Assembly (NCBI RefSeq): GCF_030813495.1
Contig: NZ_JAUSUI010000012.1
Coordinates: forward strand, 62,001 to 126,000
From: Ancylobacter polymorphus
Lineage (GTDB): Bacteria; Pseudomonadota; Alphaproteobacteria; Rhizobiales; Xanthobacteraceae
Length of the DNA: 64,000 bases
Direction of reading: 5' to 3'
Shown: one piece after another, positions 8,989-21,363 of the stretch
Position numbering within the stretch: position 1 is the stretch's first letter
How the letters are laid out: each line of letters opens with the position of its first letter
Translations under genes and position numbers: made by a program
The notes under the pieces: generated by a model
Database searches by the model: none
What the model saw: only the letters and a program-made list of their open reading frames with translations
What the model was told of the DNA's origin: nothing

Positions 8989-9140
8989 GATGGGTCGTTC
9001 CCTTGGCAATTGGCTTGGCGTTCGGGTGCGGGGCGCCCCTGACGGGCGCGCCTGCGCACGGCTCTGGTATACAACACACCGGGCTGACGCCAAAGCGCGC
9101 AGTTGACACCAGCGGAGCGCAGCCCCCGCGCGCCGGGCGA

Positions 9141-9167
9141 AACGAAAACGGGGCGCCTGAGCGCCCC
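9141..9167 (-). terminator. Intrinsic terminator after glpX
   Basis: A GGGGCGC / GCGCCCC stem (9150-9167) with a 4-base loop, followed on the minus strand by GTTTTCGTTT (9149-9140). It lies about 30 bases past the glpX stop and closes the aminotransferase-hom-glpX unit. Confidence 0.85.
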
Positions 9168-9195
9168 GTCCATGTGTCATCCGCGTCTCGAAAAC

Positions 9196-10191
9196 TCAGC
9201 CGAGATGGAACTTGGAGAGGTCGCGATGCTCGGCTTCGATCCAGCGCACCGTGCCGGTGGCGGAGCGCATGACGACGGTGTGGGTCTTCACCACGCCCTT
9301 CTCATACTTCACGCCCTTGAGCAGATTGCCGGTGGTCACGCCCGTGGCCGCGATCAGGCAGTCGCCGCGCACCATGTCGGTGATGGTGTAGATCTTCTTG
9401 GGGTCGGTGACGCCCATCTTCTTGGCGCGCTCGCGCTTGGCTTCGCTGTCGAGGATGAGGCGGGTGTACATCTCCCCGCCGATGCAGCGCAGCGCCGCCG
9501 CCGCCAGCACGCCCTCGGGCGCGCCGCCCGTGCCGAGATAGATGTCGACGCCGGTCTCGTCCGGGTTGGTGGTGTGGATGACGCCGGCCACGTCGCCATC
9601 GGTGATGAGCTGCACGGCGGCACCGGTGCGGCGCACCGCCTCGATGATGGCGGCATGGCGCGGACGGTCGAGGATCAGCGCGCTGATCTCCGAAGGCTTC
9701 ACGCCCTTCGCCTTGGCCAGCGACTGGATATTGTCCTCGGGGCTGGCGTCGATGTCGATCGTGCCCTTGGGGTAGCCGGGGCCGATGGCGATCTTGTCCA
9801 TGTAGACGTCGGGCGCGTAGAGCATCGTGCCGCCCTCGGCCATCGCCATCACGGCGATCGAGCCGGGCATGTTCTTGGCGCAGAGCGTGGTGCCTTCCAG
9901 CGGATCGACGGCGATGTCCACCGCCGGGCCCTTGCCGGTGCCGACTTCCTCGCCAATGAACAGCATCGGCGCCTCGTCGCGTTCGCCCTCGCCGATGACG
10001 ATGCGGCCGGCGATGGGCAGGCGGTTCAGTTCGCGGCGCATGGCGTCCACCGCCGCCTTGTCCGCCGCCTTCTCGTCGCCCCGGCCGCGAAGGCTGGCCG
10101 ACGCCACCGCCGCCCGCTCGGTGACCCGCACCAGCTCGAGCGTCAGAATGCGCTCCAGCACCTGGTCCTCTTTGACCGTGATCCCCGACAT
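9196..10191 (-). CDS. glpX: Class II fructose-1,6-bisphosphatase GlpX
   Basis: A 331-residue protein, the usual GlpX length, hydrolysing fructose-1,6-bisphosphate to fructose-6-phosphate in gluconeogenesis (and in the Calvin cycle where present). Diagnostic motifs are GEGERDEAPMLFIGE (residues 68-82), the metal-binding DPLEGTT, and GTGGAPEGVLAAAALRCIGGEM. It starts 13 bases after the hom stop, so the two are co-transcribed. A terminator follows. This hom-glpX pairing is common in Hyphomicrobiales. Nothing unusual is seen in its residues. Confidence 0.97.
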   Translation of the reverse strand: MSGITVKEDQVLERILTLELVRVTERAAVASASLRGRGDEKAADKAAVDAMRRELNRLPIAGRIVIGEGERDEAPMLFIGEEVGTGKGPAVDIAVDPLEGTTLCAKNMPGSIAVMAMAEGGTMLYAPDVYMDKIAIGPGYPKGTIDIDASPEDNIQSLAKAKGVKPSEISALILDRPRHAAIIEAVRRTGAAVQLITDGDVAGVIHTTNPDETGVDIYLGTGGAPEGVLAAAALRCIGGEMYTRLILDSEAKRERAKKMGVTDPKKIYTITDMVRGDCLIAATGVTTGNLLKGVKYEKGVVKTHTVVMRSATGTVRWIEAEHRDLSKFHLG

Positions 10192-10204
10192 CGTCCCTGC
10201 CCCC

Positions 10205-11524
10205 TCAGTCCTTCTCGATCCGTATCACCTGCGGCGGCGAGGCGATGACGCCATCGATCTCGATGGCGGCGATCGCGCGGCGCACCGCGTCCTCATTGGT
10301 GGCGTAGGTGATCAGCACCACCGGTGCCGGATCCTCCGCGCTCTCCGCCCGGTCGCCCCCATGGGGACGGCCGCGACGGTGCTGCATTATGGACTCGAGC
10401 GAGATGTTCTGCTCGGCCATATGGCGGGCAATGGCGGCGGCCGTTCCCGGGCGGTCGACCGCGGCGAGGCGGATGTAATAGCCGCCCTCATGGCGCCGGA
10501 TGGCGGCCTTTTCCGCCGGCTGCAGGCTCTCGGCCGTCCAGCCGAAGGGCGCGCCGGCCTTGCCGGCGGCCGCGTCGCAGAGATCGGCCACCACCGCCGA
10601 GGCGGTGGCGTCGCCGCCCGCACCCGGCCCGACGAGGGTGAGCGCGACGGCATCGCCGTCGATCGCCACCGCATTGGTGACGCCGGAGACCTGCGCGATC
10701 GGCCAGTGCTTCGGCACCATGGTCGGGTGCACGCGCAGTTCCACCTCGGTGCCGATGCGGGCCGCGACGCCGAGCAGCTTGATGCGATAGCCGAGCTCGT
10801 CCGCCGCCTCGATGTCGGCCAGCGTGATCGAGCGGATACCCTCGATATGGATCGCCTCCGGGTCCGGCTTCACGCCGAAGGCAAGCGAGGCCAGAAGGGC
10901 GAGCTTGTGGGCGGTGTCGAAGCCGTCGACATCGAAGGTCGGATCAGCCTCGGCATAGCCGAGCTTCTGCGCCTGATCGAGGCAGGTGTCGAAGGACAGC
11001 CCCTCTTCCTGCATCCGGGTGAGGATGTAGTTGCAGGTGCCGTTGAGAATGCCGGAGACGCGGGCGATCTCGTTGCCGAGCAGCGCCTCGCGCAGGGTCT
11101 TGATGACGGGAATGCCACCGGCGACCGCCGCCTCGAAATGGATGGCGACACCCGCGGCTTCCGCCGCGCGGGCGAGTTCCACGCCGTGATGGGCGAGCAG
11201 CGCCTTGTTGGCGGTGACGATGGAATGGCCGGCGGCAATCGCCGCCTCCACCGCCGTCTTGGCGATGCCGTCCGGGCCGCCGATCAGCTCGACGAACACG
11301 TCGATGTCGGGGTCGCGCGCCAGTTCGACCGCGTCGTCGTACCAGCGAAGGCCGGTAAGGTCGCAGTCCCGGTTGCGCGAACGGTCGCGGGCGCTGACAG
11401 CCACCACTTCGACCGGCCGTCCCACCCGCGCGGCGATCGCTTCCGCGCGGCGGGCCAGCATGCGCACCACACCCGCGCCGACCGTACCGAGGCCGGCGAT
11501 GCCAATTTTCAGCGGCGGCGCCAT
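10205..11524 (-). CDS. hom: Homoserine dehydrogenase
   Basis: A 439-residue NAD(P)-dependent enzyme that reduces aspartate-semialdehyde to homoserine, the branch point to threonine and methionine. The Rossmann motif GIAGLGTVGAG is at residues 8-18. The catalytic-domain motif VTANKALLAHHG and the homoserine signature GILNGTCNYIL are both present. The last roughly 85 residues form an ACT domain (IRLAAVDRPGTAAAIARHM), consistent with threonine feedback inhibition. The start at 11524 (MAPPLKIG) is chosen over the longer frame because the Rossmann fold then begins at once. It is 58 bases downstream of the aminotransferase gene and 13 bases upstream of glpX. Confidence 0.97.
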   Translation of the reverse strand: MAPPLKIGIAGLGTVGAGVVRMLARRAEAIAARVGRPVEVVAVSARDRSRNRDCDLTGLRWYDDAVELARDPDIDVFVELIGGPDGIAKTAVEAAIAAGHSIVTANKALLAHHGVELARAAEAAGVAIHFEAAVAGGIPVIKTLREALLGNEIARVSGILNGTCNYILTRMQEEGLSFDTCLDQAQKLGYAEADPTFDVDGFDTAHKLALLASLAFGVKPDPEAIHIEGIRSITLADIEAADELGYRIKLLGVAARIGTEVELRVHPTMVPKHWPIAQVSGVTNAVAIDGDAVALTLVGPGAGGDATASAVVADLCDAAAGKAGAPFGWTAESLQPAEKAAIRRHEGGYYIRLAAVDRPGTAAAIARHMAEQNISLESIMQHRRGRPHGGDRAESAEDPAPVVLITYATNEDAVRRAIAAIEIDGVIASPPQVIRIEKD

Positions 11525-11582
11525 AATGTGTCCGAACTCAACAAACGTTCCGAATGCGGCGCCGCCCGAAAGGGCCGGGCCT

Positions 11583-12800
11583 TTAGCGCGCCGCGGCGAG
11601 AGGGACGACGTTGTGCAATGTTTCCGCGCCGGTTTCAAGGAAGCGGCGGATGTTGCGCGCGGCCTGGCGGATGCGCTGCTCATTCTCCACAAGGGCGATG
11701 CGCACATACTCGTCGCCATGCTCGCCGAAGCCGACACCCGGCGCGACGGCGACATCCGCCTTCTCGATCAGAAGCTTGGAGAATTCGAGGCTGCCGAGAT
11801 GACGGAACTTCGGCGGAATCGGCGCCCAGGCGAACATGGAGGCGGTGGGCACGGGAATGTCCCAACCCGCCTTGCCGAAACTGTCCACCAGCGCGTCGCG
11901 GCGCTTCTTGTAGACGCTGCGCATCTCGGCGATGCAGTCCTGCGGGCCGTTCAGCGCCGCGGTGGCGGCCACCTGGATGGGGGTGTAGGCGCCATAATCG
12001 AGATAGGACTTCACCCGCGCCAGCGCCGCGATCAGCCGGTCATTGCCGACCGCGAAGCCCATGCGCCAGCCGGCCATGGAGAAGGTCTTGGACATGGAGG
12101 TGAATTCCACCGTCACATCCATCGCGCCCGGCACCTGCAGCACCGAGGGAGGCGGGTTGTCGTCGAAATAGACCTCGGAATAGGCGAGGTCGGAGAGCAC
12201 GATCAGATCGTGCTTCTTCGCGAAGGCGACGACATCGCGGTAGAAGTCGAGGTCCGCCACCTGAGCGGTGGGGTTCGAGGGATAGCAGAGCACCAGCGCC
12301 AGCGGCGAGGGAATCGAATGCGCCACCGCGCGCTCCAGCGCGTGGAAGAATTCCGGGCCCGGCTCGCAGGGCACGGAGCGGATCGCGGCGCCGGCCATCA
12401 GGAAGCCGAAGGCATGGATGGGGTAGCTGGGGTTCGGCACCAGGATCACGTCGCCGGGGGCGGTGATGGCCTGCGCCATATTGGCGAAGCCTTCCTTAGA
12501 GCCGAGCGTCGCCACCACCTGGGTGTCGGGGTTCAGCTTCACACCGAAGCGGCGCTCGTAATAGGCCGCCTGGGCGCGGCGCAGGCCGGGAATGCCCTTG
12601 GAGGCGGAATAACGGTCGGTGCGCGGGCGACCGATCGTCTCCTTGAGCTTTTCCACCACATGGTCCGGGGCATCGAGGTCCGGATTGCCCATGCCGAGAT
12701 CGACGATGTCGGCGCCGCCATTGCGGGCGGTAGCCTTCACGCGGTTGACCTGCTCGAACACGTAAGGCGGCAGCCGGCGAATGCGATGGAAATCGGTCAT
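11583..12800 (-). CDS. PLP-dependent class I aminotransferase (AlaC / LL-DAP-aminotransferase-like)
   Basis: A 405-residue fold-type I aminotransferase. The Schiff-base lysine is Lys238 in SMSKTFSMAGWRMGF. The substrate/PLP motifs NPSYPIH, YPSNPTAQ and SDLAYSEVYFD are intact. It resembles the alanine/glutamate-pyruvate transaminase group (AlaC) that automated annotation often calls LL-diaminopimelate aminotransferase. Its place directly before hom suggests a role in aspartate-family or alanine metabolism, but the exact substrate is not settled. The start at 12800 (MTDFHRIRRLPPYVF) agrees with the family. It is the first gene of the aminotransferase-hom-glpX operon. Confidence 0.9.
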   Translation of the reverse strand: MTDFHRIRRLPPYVFEQVNRVKATARNGGADIVDLGMGNPDLDAPDHVVEKLKETIGRPRTDRYSASKGIPGLRRAQAAYYERRFGVKLNPDTQVVATLGSKEGFANMAQAITAPGDVILVPNPSYPIHAFGFLMAGAAIRSVPCEPGPEFFHALERAVAHSIPSPLALVLCYPSNPTAQVADLDFYRDVVAFAKKHDLIVLSDLAYSEVYFDDNPPPSVLQVPGAMDVTVEFTSMSKTFSMAGWRMGFAVGNDRLIAALARVKSYLDYGAYTPIQVAATAALNGPQDCIAEMRSVYKKRRDALVDSFGKAGWDIPVPTASMFAWAPIPPKFRHLGSLEFSKLLIEKADVAVAPGVGFGEHGDEYVRIALVENEQRIRQAARNIRRFLETGAETLHNVVPLAAAR

Positions 12801-12937
12801 GGGTCTCAAGCTCCAGGCCGCCCCGTTCCTAGGAGACGGCGTCACGCGCGCTTCATATCACCTCTCGCGCGCCCGCACAGCGAGGGATGTCAGACTAAAG
12901 GGGCAGAAGGATGGTAATCGCGCGCCCCGCGGCGCGC

Positions 12938-13333
12938 TTACTGGCCGGCCTGCCCGTCCTGTCCGTCCTCGATCTGGCGGAGCATCTCCTTCTCGCGCTG
13001 GCTGGCGAGATTTTCGAGGTTCTTCTGCATTGCCTGCTGCTGTTGCGGGGTCATCACCGGCCGGTCGCCGATCTGCGCCGGGGCCCCGAAAGTCGGATAG
13101 GCCGGCTCCGGCAGCTTCTGGCGACCGACCGGAGCTGGCGCGGCCCGCGAGGAATCCGCCGAGGCTGCCGCCGATTCGCCCGATCCCGAGGTCTCCGCCG
13201 CGCCGGGCCCACTGGTGGACCTTTCCAGCGAAGCACAGCCGGCAAGCGCCAGCGCGGCAAGCGCGGCGCCAGCGAGAAGAAATGTGCGCGCGACGGACGT
13301 GCCGCCCTGCCTGCCCTGCCCGTGATCCACCAT
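12938..13333 (-). CDS. Small putative lipoprotein, Gln/Glu-rich C-terminus
   Basis: A 131-residue protein with a lipobox LAGC at residues 30-33 after an alanine/leucine-rich signal, so Cys33 should be lipidated. Ser/Ala/Gly/Pro-rich disorder covers about residues 35-75. The rest is a charged helical stretch with [20 protein letters not shown], which could be a coiled coil. The function is unknown. The start at 13333 has a GGGGAGGG ribosome-binding site; it adds a rather long n-region of about 15 residues before the signal. It is divergent from phaC, with about 85 bases between them. Confidence 0.75.
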
Positions 13334-13418
13334 GCCCTCCCCTCAGGCGTCGGCCATCTCCCGCTGCCGCGCGGAACCGGCCGTTACGCACTCGCTAGCA
13401 CCGGATGGCGCGTCTATT

Positions 13419-15815
13419 ATGGCCACCTATGAACGTACCAACCCGCGGGGACAAGCGGTGAGCAGCCGACGCAGCAGATCGATACCGTCCGCCCCGGCAA
13501 AATCCACGCCGGCGAAAACGATTGAGGCGCAGCGCACAGCGCCGGCCGACGCGCTGGCGGCTCCGCCGAAGCCGGCGGCGCGCAAGCGTGTGACCAAAAC
13601 GGTCGCGGCGGCACAGCCGACCGTACCCGCACCGGCGGCGGCGGCGCCAAAGGCGTCGACCCCGGACGTAGCGGCGAAAATACCGGCGGCGAAAAAACCG
13701 GCGGCGAAAAAACCGGCCGCCAAGAGCCCGGCCGCCAAGAGCCCGGCGCAGCCTAAGGTGGCGGTCGAAAAGCCGGCGACAGCAACTCCGGCGCGCACGC
13801 CCGCACGGAAAAAGCCGCTCACCGCCATCGCCGCCGAAACGTCCGCGACGGCCACCGTGCCCCGCACGCGACCGGTGAAGGCTGGCGGCGCCGCGCCGAA
13901 GCCAGTTTCCGCAGCGCCGCCCCCGCCCCCCAAGGCGCCGGAAGCGGCGGCCCCCTCCTCCCAGGCCGAACCTTCTGCGTCAAAGCCCTCGCCATCCAAA
14001 CCGGCCCCGGAAGCCGCCGCGCCGGAGACGCCGCGCCCCGGCGCGATCGATCTCGAAGCCTTCGCCGCCAATCTCGCGCGGATGATGGAGGAAGGTGGGC
14101 GGGCCATGGCCGCCTATCTGCGCCCGCGCGAGGAAGGCCGCATTCGCGACGATGTGGCGGAAGAACTGACCGAGGTCGCCAAGACCATTGGCAATGTCGC
14201 GGAATATTGGCTTGCCGATCCGCAGCGCACGGTGGAAGCGCAGTCACGGCTGATCGGCGGTTATCTCGAACTCTGGACCACGGCGCTGAAACGCCTCGGC
14301 GGCGAGAAGACCCGGCCAGTGGTGGAGCCCGCCACCCGCGACTCGCGCTTCGCCGACCCGGAGTGGAACTCGAATCCATTCTTCGATGCGCTCAAGCAGG
14401 CCTATCTCCTCACCGCCAACTGGGCGGCGGACATGGTGGAAGAGGCCGAGATCGACGCTCGCACGAAGCACAAGGCGGAGTTCTATGTGCGCCAGATCGC
14501 CGGCGCGGTCTCGCCCTCCAATTTCGTCCTGACCAATCCGGAGCTGCTGCGCACCACGCTCGCCTCGAATGGCGAGAACCTCGTGCGCGGCATGAAGATG
14601 CTGGCCGAGGACATCGAGGCCGGCGGCGGCGACCTGAAGATCCGCCAGACCGACGATTCCAAGTTCCGTGTCGGGGAGAATCTCGCGGTCACGCCCGGCA
14701 AGGTGATTTTCCAGAACGAGCTGATGCAGCTCATCCAGTACGCGCCGCAGACCGAAAGCGTGCTGGCGACGCCGGTGGTGATCATCCCGCCCTGGATCAA
14801 CAAGTTCTACGTGCTCGACCTGACGGCGGAGAAATCCTTCGTACGCTGGGCGGTGGAAAGCGGGCTCACCGTTTTCATGGTGTCCTGGGTCAATCCCGGC
14901 CCCGAACTCGCCGCCAAGGGCTTCGAGGACTATATGAAGGACGGTGTGCTCACCGCCTTCGACGTGGCGAAGAAGGCGACAGGCGCCAAGGACTTCCACG
15001 CGGTGGGCTATTGCGTCGGCGGCACCATGCTGGCGATGACCCTGGCCTGGCTGGCCGCCACCGGTGCCAAGCCCGGCCTCGCCAGCGCCACCTTCCTCAC
15101 CACCCAGGTCGATTTCACCTATGCCGGCGACCTCAAAGTGTTCATCGACGAGGAGCAGGTCGCCAGCCTTGAACGCAAGATGCTGGAAGCGGGGGTTATG
15201 GAAGGCAGCAAGATGGCTAATGCCTTCAACATGCTGCGTGCCAATGATCTTATCTGGCCCTATGTGGTGAACAACTATCTCAAGGGGCAGGCACCGTTTC
15301 CGTTCGACATTCTCTACTGGAACGCGGATTCGACCCGGCTGCCGGCGGCCAACCATTCCTTCTATCTGCGCAATTGCTATCTCGACAACAAGCTGGCGCA
15401 GGGTAGCCTGATGCTGGCCGGCAAGACGCTGGACCTGAAGGCCATCGACCTGCCGATGTACAGCGTAGCGACGCGCGAGGACCACATCGCCCCGGCGGCC
15501 TCGGTGTTCCTCGGCCTGCAGAAATTCGCCCGGCCCGGCCGCTTCGTACTGGCCGGCTCCGGCCATATTGCCGGTGTCATCAACCCGCCGGCGCGCGGCA
15601 AGTACCAGTACTGGACCGGCGGGCCGGCAGCGGGAAAGCTGGAGGACTGGATCGCCAAGGCCGAAATGCACCCCGGCTCCTGGTGGCCGGACTGGCGCGG
15701 CTGGATCGAGGAACGCGGTAGCGCACGCGTGCCCGCCAGCACCCGCATCCCGGGCGAGGGGCCCTACAAGGCGATCGAGGACGCACCGGGCAGCTATGTG
15801 AAGGTGCGCTCGTGA
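13419..15815 (+). CDS. phaC: Class I poly(3-hydroxyalkanoate) synthase PhaC with a long basic, histone-H1-like N-terminal region
   Basis: The protein has 798 residues, while class I PhaC is usually about 580-620. Residues from about 208 on are an ordinary PhaC: the N-terminal domain, then the lipase-box-like GYCVGG with catalytic Cys532, Asp688 (TREDHIAP) and His716 (GSGHIAG). It polymerises hydroxyacyl-CoA into storage polyester at the granule surface. The first roughly 205 residues are Ala/Pro/Lys-rich with [20 protein letters not shown] repeats, like histone H1 tails and the DNA-binding tail of the phasin PhaF. The start MATYERTNP resembles the beginning of other alphaproteobacterial PhaC proteins, so the basic region looks inserted rather than a mis-called start. 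No frameshift is seen. Confidence 0.95.
13683..13742 (+). repeat. 15-bp tandem repeats inside phaC encoding PAAK[K/S] units
   Basis: Two exact copies of CCGGCGGCGAAAAAA are followed by two exact copies of CCGGCCGCCAAGAGC. Each unit is 15 bp and encodes one pentapeptide (PAAKK or PAAKS), so gain or loss of units stays in frame. It lies in the disordered N-terminal region of PhaC. Confidence 0.9.
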
Positions 15816-15872
15816 TGCGGGCCACCGCCTCCGCCCACACCCGCCGCGCGGCGCGCCGGCCAAGAGCCTGAC

Positions 15873-16541
15873 GTGGACGAGTGGCTCGCCCTGACCATCT
15901 CTGCCGTCGGCGCGGCGAGCACCGCTGTCGGCGTGCTCGCCGCGCTCTGGCAGTATCGCCGCAACAGCCTGGAGAGCCGGCGCCGTGACCGGCGCGACAA
16001 GGCCGTGGTCGCGGCCAACGAGATGGAAGTTTTCGGACAGGACCCCTCCGTCAAGAACGCGCTGGCGATGCTCGACTGGGACCCGCCAGTGCTCCAGCTC
16101 GCCCTGGCCGACGGCACGTCACGGGCGGTGCGGGTCGACAGCGACCTTTTCATCGCGGCCCTCCGCTCCAGCCAGGCGCCGGCGCCTGGGGGCTGGCCCT
16201 GGCTACCGGACGATGATCGCCGCCGCCTCGCCGAGATCGCCCGCAGGGGCCCCGGCTTCACACTCGAAGAAACCGCGATCCGCAGTATTTTCGACCGTTT
16301 TCTTGACCGGCTCGAACGCATCGAGACGCTGATCGAGCGCGACGTGATCTCAGCCGAGGATTTCGAGACCCACTTCGCCTATTGGCTCGACCTCATGGGC
16401 GAGATCCCGTCGGCTTCGCTCAGCCACTTCGCCGCGCTCAAGCGCGCCGCGCTGTGGGGCTATATCGACCATTACCGCTTCTCGAACACGCGCAAGCTGT
16501 TCGCGCGCTACAAGCGGGCGACACTGCGGCCGGTCGGCTGA
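15873..16541 (+). CDS. Membrane-anchored protein of unknown function
   Basis: A 222-residue protein with one N-terminal membrane helix (about residues 5-27, LTISAVGAASTAVGVLAALW) and then a long charged cytoplasmic part. That part begins with a strongly basic helix (RRNSLESRRRDRRDK) and later holds amphipathic helices (FDRFLDRLERIETLIERD). It has no catalytic motif I can name. The start is GTG at 15873, 57 bases after phaC, which suggests co-transcription. Its stop at 16541 lies only three bases from the argC-like stop in the duplicated fragment that follows, i.e. the two ends are convergent. Confidence 0.7.
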   Translation: MDEWLALTISAVGAASTAVGVLAALWQYRRNSLESRRRDRRDKAVVAANEMEVFGQDPSVKNALAMLDWDPPVLQLALADGTSRAVRVDSDLFIAALRSSQAPAPGGWPWLPDDDRRRLAEIARRGPGFTLEETAIRSIFDRFLDRLERIETLIERDVISAEDFETHFAYWLDLMGEIPSASLSHFAALKRAALWGYIDHYRFSNTRKLFARYKRATLRPVG

Positions 16542-16542
16542 T

Positions 16543-16624
16543 CCTCACGGGAACCGCGCGATCTGCTCCAGACCCAGCGTCTCGGGATAGCCGAGCACGA
16601 AGTTCATGTTCTGCACCGCCTGGC
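16543..16624. repeat. Direct repeat, distal copy: duplicated argC 3' end
   Basis: These 82 bases match 17673-17754 at 80 positions. They contain the argC stop codon and the last 26 codons in antisense. The copy reads QAVQNMNFVLGYPETLGLEQ, then IARFP, where argC has L for F and L for R. Identity begins at the two bases beside the stop and ends abruptly at 16624. Confidence 0.93.
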
Positions 16625-17617
16625 ATTCAGCACACCAACCACATTGTCGTAGCCGCACTGAGCGGCGAAAGAGAGCGGGAAGATAAGAAATACGACCGCT
16701 GCCAGCATATAAACGATCTGCATCGCGGGAGCTTCCGGAAAATAAATATACTTTACAACCAAGAATACAATTCTGTGCCCGAGATACATGAAGAAGCTGG
16801 CATAGGCCACATATCGAAACAACGTCGCGAATTTCACGGCCCGCACCCTCGTCACCGTGACCGCAAAGACCAATGACGCAAAAAAGAGGGCGAAGGGCGT
16901 CGCACGCAAATCCGTCTCCAATTCGGTAAAATCGGAACGCGTTGAAAGAACAAGCGCGGCCAGTGTTCCAACGCCGACCGCGATCGGCAGCGCAGCACCG
17001 GTTGACAGGACGCGGCCAGCCATGAATACGCCGGCTGCGAAAGAAGGGAAGTAGATCAGCAGCCTGACATCCAGTCGCCCCGTGGCAAAATTGTATAAAT
17101 ATCCAGAAACCATGAATGAAAAACAAACAAATACATACAAAATAGTATCTCTGCGAAATTTAGCCAATACAGGGACAGTGCAGTAGCATATAATCAGAGC
17201 AGTTATGAACCACAAAGTCATCGGAGCCGGCTTCGCGAACATTGATATCAAAAATACACTTCGTATAAAAACGCCAATGCTTTCAAGATTAAGAATCAGG
17301 AAGAAAATCGATGCAACCAGGTACGGCGGATAGATTCTAATGAACCGCTCGGCAAGGAAACGGAACGTACCGCCACTTTCCAGGCCCGACACCTTTTTCG
17401 CGGGCGACACCATGTAACCGGAGATCAGAAAAAAAAGCGCCAACGCCCCGACGGTGAGATGGGTGGTGATGGCATTCTGATAGCTGGCGTTGGAGATGTA
17501 ATTCCCGAGATGCCAGAACGCGACAATGTAGAGAACGCTGACGCAACGCAGCACGTCGATCGACTCAATCCGACGCCTCTGCAACGCGGCAGGGAAGGCT
17601 GTCAATTCGCGCCACAT
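16604..17617 (-). CDS. Acyltransferase 3 (OafA/NodX-type) integral membrane protein, probably horizontally acquired
   Basis: A 337-residue protein with about ten membrane helices. It has acyltransferase-3 features: IDVLRCVSVLYIVAFWHLGNY at the start with the conserved His, LFFLISGYMVS, then the RFIRIYPPYL motif. Such enzymes move acetyl or other acyl groups onto surface sugars (O-antigen, Nod factor, capsule). Base composition is visibly lower in GC, with codons such as AAT and ATA that are rare in the neighbours. The start at 17617 has a GGAG site. The last seven codons and the stop lie inside the argC duplicate, so the native C-terminus may have been replaced. It sits 57 bases after argC on the same strand and may rely on that promoter. 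Confidence 0.85.
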   Translation of the reverse strand: MWRELTAFPAALQRRRIESIDVLRCVSVLYIVAFWHLGNYISNASYQNAITTHLTVGALALFFLISGYMVSPAKKVSGLESGGTFRFLAERFIRIYPPYLVASIFFLILNLESIGVFIRSVFLISMFAKPAPMTLWFITALIICYCTVPVLAKFRRDTILYVFVCFSFMVSGYLYNFATGRLDVRLLIYFPSFAAGVFMAGRVLSTGAALPIAVGVGTLAALVLSTRSDFTELETDLRATPFALFFASLVFAVTVTRVRAVKFATLFRYVAYASFFMYLGHRIVFLVVKYIYFPEAPAMQIVYMLAAVVFLIFPLSFAAQCGYDNVVGVLNARRCRT

Positions 17618-17672
17618 GATCGCTCCGCGGTCCCGGACGGATAAAACTGTGGCTCCCGCAGGCACGCCGCCC

Positions 17673-17754
17673 CCTCACGGGAACAGCGCGATCTGCTCCA
17701 GACCCAGCGTCTCGGGATAGCCGAGCACGAGGTTCATGTTCTGCACCGCCTGGC
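17673..17754. repeat. Direct repeat, proximal copy: the argC 3' end itself
   Basis: The partner of 16543-16624, offset exactly 1130 bp. This copy is continuous with the rest of argC and encodes its functional C-terminus. Confidence 0.93.
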
Positions 17755-18730
17755 CGGAGGCGCCCTTCACCAGATTGTCGGTGGTGGAGATCACGATCAC
17801 CCGGTCCGGCGCGCGGTCCTTCACCACGCCGATGAAGGCCATATTGGAGCCCTTCACGAAGCGCGACTGCGGCACCTGGCCGAGCGGCAGCACATGCACG
17901 AAGGGCTCGCTCTTGTAGAAATCCGCCAGCACGCGGTGCACGCCCTCCGCACCGACGCCGGCGCCGGTCTTGAGGTAGATGGTGGCATAGATGCCTCGCG
18001 TCATCGGCACGAGGTGCGGGGTGAAGCTCGGCGCCACGCTGCGGCCGGCGGCCTTGGAGAATTCCTGATCCAATTCGGCCATGTGGCGGTGGCTGCCGAC
18101 GCCATAGGCGTGCATGCCCTCCGTCACCTCGGTGAACAGCAGGTTCTCCTTCGCCGAACGGCCCGCCCCGGTCACGCCGCTCTTGGCGTCGATGACGATA
18201 TGCTCGGACTCAATGGCGCCGGCCTCGATCAGCGGCACCACGGGCAGGATGGCTGTCGTGGTGTAGCAGCCGGGGTTCGCGACCAGCCGCGCCTTGCGGA
18301 TGTCGTCGCGGTACAGCTCGACGACGCCGTAGACGGCTTCCTGCTGCAGCTCCAGCGCCTGGTGCGGATGGCCGTACCAGCGCTCATAGGCGCCATCGTC
18401 GCGCAGCCGGAAATCGGCGGAGAGATCGACCACCTTCACATGCGGCGCGGTCTCGAACACGTTCTTGATGACAAGCTGCGTGGTGCCATGCGGCAGGGCG
18501 CAGAAAACCAGGTCCACGTCCTTCCACGCCACCTGTTCGATGGTGATGAGATCCGGCAGCTTGAACGGCGCGAACTGCGGGAACACATCCGCCACCGCCT
18601 GCCCCGCCTTGCGGTCGGCAGTCAGCGCGACGATCTCGACGCGGGGATGGCGCAGCAGCAGGCGCAGCAGTTCCGAGCCGGTGTAGCCCGAGGCCCCGAG
18701 GATGGCGATCCGCGCCTTGCTGTCCGTCAT
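17675..18730 (-). CDS. argC: N-acetyl-gamma-glutamyl-phosphate reductase
   Basis: A 351-residue enzyme of arginine biosynthesis that reduces N-acetylglutamyl-phosphate to the semialdehyde. The NADP-binding GASGYTGSELLRLLLRHP lies at residues 10-27. The catalytic cysteine is in VANPGCYTT. The conserved SADFRLRD, GVVELYRDDI and HRHMAELDQE are also present. It is a complete, normal-length protein. The start at 18730 has AAGG upstream and fits the family start. Its last 26 codons are duplicated 1130 bp downstream, flanking a foreign acyltransferase gene, yet its own frame is intact. Confidence 0.97.
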   Translation of the reverse strand: MTDSKARIAILGASGYTGSELLRLLLRHPRVEIVALTADRKAGQAVADVFPQFAPFKLPDLITIEQVAWKDVDLVFCALPHGTTQLVIKNVFETAPHVKVVDLSADFRLRDDGAYERWYGHPHQALELQQEAVYGVVELYRDDIRKARLVANPGCYTTTAILPVVPLIEAGAIESEHIVIDAKSGVTGAGRSAKENLLFTEVTEGMHAYGVGSHRHMAELDQEFSKAAGRSVAPSFTPHLVPMTRGIYATIYLKTGAGVGAEGVHRVLADFYKSEPFVHVLPLGQVPQSRFVKGSNMAFIGVVKDRAPDRVIVISTTDNLVKGASGQAVQNMNLVLGYPETLGLEQIALFP

Positions 18731-18930
18731 GGTGGCGACCCTTCCTGCTGGCGCGCCCGCTGAACGACAGGGGGCGCGCATGGAGCTGCGCCCTTACACC
18801 TTTCGCATGTCCGACGAAAGACAAGAGCGTCCCCGGCTGACGCATGGCGGCTGCGCGCGCCGGGCGGGAACCGGATGGAACCCCCGCCGCTTCTCCTCCG
18901 GCCTCTCCACGGACAGCCGGAGCCCACGCC

Positions 18931-19215
18931 ATGAACGCCCCCCTCGCCTGGTTTGAAACCGGCCTCGCCATGACGCGGCTCGGCATGGACATGCAGGTGG
19001 TGATCACCGAGCGGCTCAGTCGTCTCGCGCGCGGCGACGCCGCCGCCGGCGTCGAGGCGATGCGGATGATGACGGAAAAGACGCTGGCGCTGGGTGAGGT
19101 CAATGCCCGGCTGTGGAAGGCGGCGGCTGCCGGGCGGCTGGGTGCGGTCGGGCCGGAGATCGTCGCCCTTTACGGCGCCAAGGTGCGCGCCAACCGCAAG
19201 CGACTGAAGCGTTGA
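18931..19215 (+). CDS. Small helical protein of unknown function (phasin-like size and character)
   Basis: A 94-residue, almost entirely helical protein rich in Ala, Met and Arg, with no signal peptide, ending in a basic tail (RANRKRLKR). Methionine-rich amphipathic helices (LAMTRLGMDMQVVITERL) recall short phasins that coat PHA granules, which would suit the nearby phaC, but I cannot show homology. The start at 18931 follows GGAGCCCACGCC. It lies between argC (divergent) and parE (114 bases downstream, same strand). Confidence 0.65.
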   Translation: MNAPLAWFETGLAMTRLGMDMQVVITERLSRLARGDAAAGVEAMRMMTEKTLALGEVNARLWKAAAAGRLGAVGPEIVALYGAKVRANRKRLKR

Positions 19216-19329
19216 GCCGGCTGCGCGCATGGCGCCCATGTTCACGGAGCGTTCCGGTTTCGCTCTGGCGCTGTCATAGTGCTAAGGAAACCGAATCGGT
19301 TCCTGACTCTGACGAGACCGCCCGCGCCC

Positions 19330-21363
19330 ATGTCGAATTCTGACGACCTCTTCGCCGCTGTTCCCGCCCCGCGTCCGCGCGCCGCTGCGCGCCCCGCCGC
19401 GCCGCGCGAGGGCACGCCCGGCGAGGCCGGCTACACGGCTGCCGATATCGAGGTGCTGGAAGGGCTGGAGCCGGTGCGGCGCCGGCCGGGCATGTATATT
19501 GGCGGCACGGACGAGAAGGCGCTGCACCATCTCTTCGCCGAAGTGGTCGACAATTCGATGGACGAGGCCGTTGCCGGCCATGCCAGTTTCATCGAGGTGG
19601 AACTGACCGAGGATGGCTTCCTCACCGTTACCGACAATGGCCGCGGCATCCCGATCGAGGAACACCCGAAATATCCCGGCAAGTCGGCGCTGGAAGTGAT
19701 TCTCACCACGTTGCACGCGGGCGGCAAGTTCGACAGCAAGGTCTACGAGACCTCCGGCGGCTTGCACGGCGTCGGCGTTTCCGTGGTCAACGCTCTGTCA
19801 GACGTGCTGGTGGTCGAGGTCGCACGCGGGCAGACGCTCTACCGCCAGACCTATTCGCGCGGTGTGCCGCAGGGTGCTATCCAGGAGGTCGGGCGCATCC
19901 TCAACCGCCGCGGCACGCGGGTGAGCTTCCACCCGGACGCGCAGATCTTCGGCGAGAATGCCCGTTTCAAGCCGGCCCGCGTGTTCAAGATGGCCCGCTC
20001 AAAGGCCTATCTATTCGGCGGGGTGGAAATACGCTGGAGCTGCGACGCCTCGCTCGTCGCCGGCACGGACATCCCGGAGAAAGCGGTGTTCCGCTTCCCC
20101 GGCGGCCTGCGCGACTATCTCGCCGCCGATATTGACGGCCATACGCTGGTCCATCCCGACATCTTCTCCGGCAAGACCCAGCGCCCCGGCGGCCATGGCT
20201 CGGCGGAATGGGCGGTGGCCTGGCTGGGCGATGCCGATGGCAGCATCTCCTCCTATTGCAACACCATCCCGACCGCCGAAGGTGGCACGCATGAGACCGG
20301 CCTGCGTGCCGTGCTGCTCAAGGGGCTGCGCGACCATGCCGAGCGCACCGGCGCGGCCAAGCGCGCCGCCATCGTCACCGCCGACGACGTGATGGCCGGC
20401 TGCGCCGCGATGCTCTCCGTCTTCGTGCGTGAGCCGGAATTCCAGGGCCAGACCAAGGAGAAGCTCGCCACCGCCGAAGCCACCCGCATCGTCGAGGCGG
20501 CGCTGCGCGATCCGTTCGACCATTGGCTCGGCGGCAATCCGGCGCAGGCCAACCGTCTGCTCGACTGGGTGGTGGAGCGCGCCGAGGAAAGGCTGCGCCG
20601 CCGGCAGGAGAAGGAAATCTCCCGCAAGACCGCCGTGCGCAAGCTGCGCCTGCCGGGCAAGCTGGCGGACTGCTCCAACAATTCGGCGGCGGGGTCCGAG
20701 CTCTTCATCGTCGAAGGCGACTCGGCCGGCGGCTCGGCCAAGCAGGCGCGCGAGCGCCAGACCCAGGCGGTGCTGCCGCTGCGCGGCAAAATCCTCAACG
20801 TCGCGAGCGCCGGCCGCGACAAGCTCGCCGCCAACCAGCAGCTCGGCGACCTCGTGCAGGCGCTCGGCGCCGGCACCGGGGCGCAGTATCGCGAGGAAGA
20901 TTTGCGCTATGAGCGGGTCATCATCATGACCGACGCCGATGTCGACGGCGCGCATATCGCCTCGCTGCTCGTCACCTTCTTCTACCGGCAGATGCCGAAG
21001 CTGATCGAGAACGGCCATCTCTTCCTTGCGGTGCCGCCGCTCTACCGCATCAGCCAGGGCGCCAAGACGCTCTATGCCCGCGACGAGGCGCATCGCGACG
21101 AGTTGCTGCGTACGGAATTCTCAGGGCGCGGCAAGGTCGAGATCGGCCGCTTCAAGGGCCTTGGCGAAATGATGCCGGCGCAGCTGAAGGAAACCACGAT
21201 GAGCCGCAAGACGCGGACCTTGCTGCGCATCACCGTGGAGGAAGCCGAACGCGCGGCCACGGCCGATATTGTCGAGCGGCTGATGGGCAACAAGCCGGAA
21301 AGCCGCTTCACCTTCATTTCCGAGCGTGCCGCCTTCGCGAGCGAAGAACTGCTGGATATCTGA
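19330..21363 (+). CDS. parE: DNA topoisomerase IV subunit B
   Basis: A 677-residue type IIA topoisomerase ATPase subunit. The GHKL ATPase motifs are present: EVVDNSMDEAVAGH, then DNGRGIP, then the GGLHGVGVSVVNALS lid. The TOPRIM motifs are EGDSAGGSAKQ (Glu462) and DADVDGAHI. Together with ParC it decatenates replicated chromosomes. It is shorter than GyrB and lacks the GyrB insert, so ParE is favoured. The N-terminus is an Ala/Arg/Pro-rich tail of about 30 residues. The start at 19330 (MSNSDDLF) is the natural one. Confidence 0.95.
   Translation: MSNSDDLFAAVPAPRPRAAARPAAPREGTPGEAGYTAADIEVLEGLEPVRRRPGMYIGGTDEKALHHLFAEVVDNSMDEAVAGHASFIEVELTEDGFLTVTDNGRGIPIEEHPKYPGKSALEVILTTLHAGGKFDSKVYETSGGLHGVGVSVVNALSDVLVVEVARGQTLYRQTYSRGVPQGAIQEVGRILNRRGTRVSFHPDAQIFGENARFKPARVFKMARSKAYLFGGVEIRWSCDASLVAGTDIPEKAVFRFPGGLRDYLAADIDGHTLVHPDIFSGKTQRPGGHGSAEWAVAWLGDADGSISSYCNTIPTAEGGTHETGLRAVLLKGLRDHAERTGAAKRAAIVTADDVMAGCAAMLSVFVREPEFQGQTKEKLATAEATRIVEAALRDPFDHWLGGNPAQANRLLDWVVERAEERLRRRQEKEISRKTAVRKLRLPGKLADCSNNSAAGSELFIVEGDSAGGSAKQARERQTQAVLPLRGKILNVASAGRDKLAANQQLGDLVQALGAGTGAQYREEDLRYERVIIMTDADVDGAHIASLLVTFFYRQMPKLIENGHLFLAVPPLYRISQGAKTLYARDEAHRDELLRTEFSGRGKVEIGRFKGLGEMMPAQLKETTMSRKTRTLLRITVEEAERAATADIVERLMGNKPESRFTFISERAAFASEELLDI

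Follow-up and report, generated by a model that had tools for sequence, protein, structure and literature searches.

In the genome studied here (G000; 4.71 Mb in 22 contigs, completeness 100, contamination 0), the 3' end of argC is found twice. The window, which is the whole stretch of 64,000 nucleotides that was analysed, contains two direct repeats of 82 bp at an offset of 1130 bp. Comparison of the window sequence revealed that 80 of the 82 bases are identical, as a preliminary description of this DNA had stated. The stop codon of argC (TCA on the plus strand) occupies 17675-17677 and its counterpart in the distal copy 16545-16547. When the argC protein was used as a query, two places in its own genome were matched, namely argC itself and the distal fragment. 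The gene order is phaC, gene X, argC fragment, acyltransferase, flank and argC (Table 1). The alignment of G000 to its nearest relative (G002, at locus L035) ends at 15818; the genome-specific segment that follows includes gene X and extends past the repeat-bounded stretch which the preliminary description had considered. No tRNA is present in the window and no Rfam match was found. Inverted repeats are absent from the two segment ends, the single pair being 15840-15856 with 16442-16458. A 193-aa open reading frame on the minus strand (16545-17126), which starts within the acyltransferase gene in another frame and ends at the old argC stop of the fragment, is probably meaningless.

Table 1. 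Features of the phaC-argC region in G000 (window positions).
Feature	Position	Strand	Evidence and remarks
phaC, class I PHA synthase	13332..15815	+	TIGR01838, 750 bits; conserved left neighbour, left limit of the segment
Segment seen in G000 alone, ~1.85 kb	~15819..~17661 (limits approximate)		Empty phaC-argC sites in 29/29 congeners
Gene X, 222 aa	15873..16541	+	DUF4760 match below threshold; composition like that of the host
Distal copy of the argC 3' end, fragment	16543..16624	-	Two private nonsynonymous changes
AT3 (acyltransferase-3) gene, 337 aa from ATG	16604..17617	-	PF01757; phrog_3333 O-acetyltransferase
13 nt beside the proximal argC stop, common to congener G026	17662..17674		Last two (17673-17674) belong to the repeat
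Proximal copy, real 3' end of argC	17673..17754	-	82 bp same as in G023 and G007
argC, intact	17675..18730	-	Above cut-off for PF01118, PF22698 and PF02774; protein 99% identical to that of G002

The acyltransferase matches its Pfam family with 82.4 bits against a cut-off of 31, over profile positions 2-321 of 326, and the phrog match is also to an O-acetyltransferase. AT3 proteins are described as carrying an RxxR motif in the first cytoplasmic loop and an R/K-X10-H motif in TM1 (PMC9558356). By eye, the acyltransferase has RFIR where its homologues have RLLR, RFLR and RMLR, and its TM1 motif reads R-X11-H, as it does in the four best order-level homologues (L053-L056). With a nearly complete domain and RxxR in place, the enzyme is probably active in principle. 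The reading frame begins with an ATG at 17617 and its stop (16604-16606) falls within the distal repeat, where the C-terminal residues ARRCRT and the stop codon are the argC fragment read in another frame. The C-terminus is thus chimaeric, as had been proposed. The four homologues (about 30-33% identity) terminate near this position, so the native C-terminus has probably lost little. No PDB sequence match was found for the acyltransferase, and neither it nor gene X has a PADLOC match.

The acyltransferase gene shares the strand of argC and begins 57 bp behind it, with a GGAG 5 nt upstream of its ATG (by eye); it may be co-transcribed with argC and read from the argC transcript. A consensus scan of 15700-17800 gave no promoter-like site on the acyltransferase strand and no terminator excess. 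AT3 proteins acylate surface sugars, and in Shigella a phage-borne AT3 protein blocks superinfection (PMC9558356). The acyltransferase product would acylate a cell-surface glycan; the idea that it might thereby change a phage receptor derives from the general role of AT3 proteins, and no finding at this locus links the gene to phage.

The base composition of the acyltransferase (GC 0.507, GC3 0.605) is atypical, as the preliminary description had it, against 0.666 and 0.903 for argC and a GC of 0.678 for the window. Gene X is host-like (GC 0.680, GC3 0.861) and close to argC and phaC. The difference in GC3 between the two genes suggests that they probably came from different sources and not from one. 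Gene X has no Pfam match over cut-off and was found in only one of the 61 genomes searched, G000 itself; wider samples that include G000 gave 3 matching genomes out of 397 for the order and 2 out of 385 for the class. One weak plasmid match and one viral-contig match of 20 residues were also obtained. A relative with 39% identity lies at L051:1489-2214 in one other genome of the order, where it adjoins a reading frame resembling glutamyl-tRNA synthetase (by eye). Gene X is possibly membrane-anchored, also by eye.

The acyltransferase query (E up to 0.001) matched 3 of the 61 genomes, which are G000 and two weak matches in other genera; the wider samples, again including G000, gave matches in 25 of the 397 order-level genomes and in 12 of the 385 class-level ones, most of them weak. 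Four Rhizobium plasmid matches were found, all below 60% identity, and two of them cover 80% or more of the query; one Rhizobium plasmid match has 44% identity over 47% of the acyltransferase. Phage records and viral contigs held no match. An origin of the gene from a phage or a plasmid was considered and rejected. No donor was found for either gene, the best long matches being about 39% identical for gene X and 35% for the acyltransferase. A genome-contig scan with the argC query, which names two congeners among 80 loci, likewise gave no donor.

The argC query itself matched all 61 genomes, with weak and partial matches in some of the more distant ones. When a DNA query covering 15800-17800 was run over the 30 genomes of the genus, with 10 candidates per genome scored, one argC-end place was found in each of the 29 congeners; G019 gave one further match, of 48 bases, at another place and with the gene X portion of the query. 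The argC protein query, which does detect the fragment in G000, also showed a single argC end in each congener. The 82-mer likewise occurs at one place in each of the 29 congener stretches around argC. In all 29, argC adjoins phaC, and the distance from the end of phaC to the end of argC is 68-1652 bp. In the six nearest relatives this gap measures 68-232 bp and holds no intervening open reading frame of at least 80 aa. The acyltransferase is absent from all 29 congeners, which bears out the earlier proposal that it is lineage-specific with empty-site relatives. The empty site had been predicted to show the convergent gene X directly beside argC, and here the prediction failed: with phaC beside argC in 29 of 29 congeners and gene X in none, gene X is not the ancestral neighbour. 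On the sequences compared, the empty site is phaC-argC and not gene X-argC.

The phaC-argC gap varies among the congeners, and in 17 of the 29 it holds at least one open reading frame of 80 aa or more. At L157:11363-12067 a carbonic anhydrase gene (PF00484; one such frame was submitted to Pfam) lies between phaC and argC, and similar-looking frames occupy the gaps of several congeners further away, in many cases with an LprI-like reading frame (recognised by eye) as neighbour. These two are the commonest contents of the gap; three LprI-like frames submitted to Pfam gave no match. Neither kind of frame was seen in the gaps of the six nearest relatives. As both look common to the more distant congeners, much of the gap variation may be explained by loss. 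A 126-aa gap frame in G022 has no Pfam match, and in L036, L037, L047, L048 and L049 the gap is filled by short palindromic repeats of the type GATCCCGGATCGGCC...GTCCGGGATGACGG (by eye).

Further comparison concerned which of the two copies is the original. The nucleotides beyond the proximal argC stop read GCACGCCGCCCCC, the last two being part of the repeat. This flank was found to be identical to that of G026 over a run of 13 nt, to that of G019 over 9, to those of G015 and G023 over 4 and to that of G002 over 1, and the flank of the distal copy shares a run of 3 at most with any of the 29 congeners. None of 8572 sampled window stretches reaches a run of 13 with the congener flanks. Among the 6181 window stretches ending in CC, a run of 13 occurs in the flank itself only, one other stretch reaches 12 and 22 reach 9, so that the G019 match alone would be weak. 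The proximal end is thus placed in surroundings known from a congener.

At both sites where the copies differ, it is the distal copy that has the private base: at the first site A is found in 29 of 29 congeners, and at the second G in 27 and C in 2. The changes replace a leucine by arginine and a leucine by phenylalanine, and neither replacement occurs in 54 rows of argC homologues, which have 42 Leu, 10 Met and 2 Val at the first site and 42 Leu, 5 Val, 4 Ile and 3 Ala at the second. The rows were drawn from the 29 congeners together with 28 of the 80 genome-contig scan loci (57 tried, three dropped for not reaching the end); two of the 28 loci, L076 and L089, lie in genomes already counted as congeners G023 and G008. 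Because its two amino-acid changes are absent from all 54 rows, the distal copy appears to be a decaying fragment without function as argC. The proximal 82 bp have no differences from G023 and G007, and 5 sites differ from G002. As the same 82 bp are found unchanged in these two congeners, the 80/82 identity of the copies is by itself no proof of a recent copy.

To one reading we give about an even chance: a lineage-specific insertion between the convergent phaC and argC that involved no dedicated recombinase and by which the distal argC end was added. The two genes of the segment would have arrived separately. Incoming DNA that carried phaC, gene X and a broken argC end would have recombined homologously in phaC, while illegitimate joining would have linked it to the 3' end of an acyltransferase gene that was present behind argC beforehand; alternatively, the 82 bp may have been copied in as filler during end joining. 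The argC fragment would then by chance have supplied the stop codon of the acyltransferase. One homologous crossover and one illegitimate junction suffice for the observed order, whether the insertion was anchored in phaC or in argC. For homology at one end with illegitimate joining at the other, precedents are given in the literature (PMC5361080; PMC2884548; PMC3240628): an insertion that shifts back the old 3' end was proposed for Vibrio T6SS loci (PMC5361080), the same type of event was proposed for many small variable segments (PMC2884548), and homology-facilitated illegitimate integration was reported as rare during E. coli conjugation (PMC3240628). The genome has two Ku genes on opposite strands, separated by about 4 kb (G000:C3:207669-212411), which make end joining possible; that they acted in this insertion is a guess.

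Insertion anchored in phaC leaves argC among its neighbours, and it fits weak signs of a foreign tract on the phaC side. At the phaC end, G000 is 0.906 identical to G002, 0.901 to G019, 0.899 to G026 and 0.893 to G023, a pattern unlike that further upstream. At sites where G002 agrees with G015 against the clade of G023, G026 and G019, G000 follows the clade in 5 of 9 cases within 15300-15599, against 28 of 274 within 9000-21300. The best run of such clustered sites, 6 of 9, was reached in 53 of 5000 permutations. In trees, G000 stays beside G002 both at the phaC end (78) and in argC (77 and 84), so the foreign tract is a possibility only, and many of the sites which G000 shares with G023, G026 and G019 turn out to be private changes of G002 once polarised by G015. 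Insertion anchored in phaC is also weakened by the flanks, since that of G002 differs (a run of 1) and G015 and G023 share 4 nt. As the searches gave no donor of either gene, the junctions are not readable against parental sequences.

It is also possible, at somewhat less than even probability, that the insertion was anchored in argC. A recipient with gene X beside argC would have received a congener argC end with its flank and the acyltransferase, which recombined in argC; illegitimate joining into the old argC end would have left that end outward as the distal copy. The flank in G002 matches neither copy, and the proximal one in G000 may be either the old flank, lost in G002, or one that came in from the G026 side; in the latter case the proximal end could be the incoming one. 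A donor from the G026 side would account for a flank common to G026 and not to G002, the proximal 82 bp are the same as in G023 and differ from G002 at 5 sites, and in the Vibrio precedent old 3' ends are likewise shifted back (PMC5361080). However, this account requires that gene X was first placed 3 nt from the argC stop, a state found in no congener. Moreover, of the argC-end sites at which G000 departs from G002 and which G015 can polarise, most changed in G002 itself, and the trees cited above place argC beside that of G002. The interval 17660-17960 holds no informative sites, and a short foreign tract there could escape detection.

The preliminary description had taken the distal copy as the ancestral argC end and argC as an integration hot spot, with the gene restored by the proximal copy. 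That a small element integrated site-specifically at the 3' end of argC, with the 82 bp as attL and attR, is now very unlikely, even though direct repeats flanking the acyltransferase beside a restored gene are the usual signature of an island (Islander, PMC4383910). After circle integration or target-site duplication at the argC end, the old flank would be expected beyond the distal copy; the congener-type flank beside the proximal copy falls inside the would-be element and speaks against integration into argC with restoration of the gene's 3' end. In addition, neither gene X nor the AT3 gene matches an integrase or other recombinase family, the acyltransferase frame overlaps the repeat, and the single argC end in each of the 29 congeners speaks against recurrent use of the site around other cargo. 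The hot-spot proposal therefore did not hold. The polarity proposed for the copies fails together with the recombinase, while it may still be right in the form anchored in argC that needs none. That the 82-bp argC end serves as the attachment site of a minimal cassette lacking its own recombinase, with the enzyme supplied in trans and the cargo expressed by read-through from argC, is extremely improbable. An assembly artefact, which a draft of 22 contigs might invite, is likewise extremely improbable, as the copies differ at two sites and in their flanks, completeness and contamination are 100 and 0, and a single reading frame crosses one junction.

The finding opens no long-standing question. 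It provides an example of a likely surface-modifying gene gained between convergent core genes, with no mobile element seen and with 29 empty-site relatives for comparison. It also illustrates that finding a gene between two copies of another gene's end is insufficient to call an integration site and that the flanks need to be read as well. In the available parts of the literature on integration sites and gene-end restoration, nothing was found on argC as such a site.

Several known systems resemble parts of this locus. As in the stand-alone AT3 acyltransferases OacA, ExoZ and ExoH, PF01757 covers nearly the whole protein and RxxR is present (PMC9558356), although the likeness is to the family description, and the long matches of the acyltransferase reach no more than about 30-35% identity. 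Islands at gene 3' ends, described for tDNA (PMC4383910) and for trmE and yicC (PMC8409611), likewise have a gene and a displaced gene end flanking foreign DNA; here, in contrast, no integrase was found, the congener-type flank lies on the inner side and the arrangement is not recurrent in relatives. Small strain-specific segments between conserved genes with a direct repeat are also described in PMC2884548, where 10-18% of the variable segments in the species studied are flanked by direct repeats. Those repeats are mostly under 30 bp, whereas the present one is 82 bp long and flanks only part of the segment. In the Vibrio T6SS immunity arrays, as described in PMC5361080, a gene end is similarly displaced beside acquired DNA with no need for a site-specific recombinase, but the gene here is the housekeeping argC, the fragment is 82 bp and gene X has no known immunity logic. 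Set beside these systems, the locus looks like a small insertion specific to this lineage, with a displaced gene end as its scar, of the ordinary type left by imprecise DNA uptake and without a dedicated insertion system.
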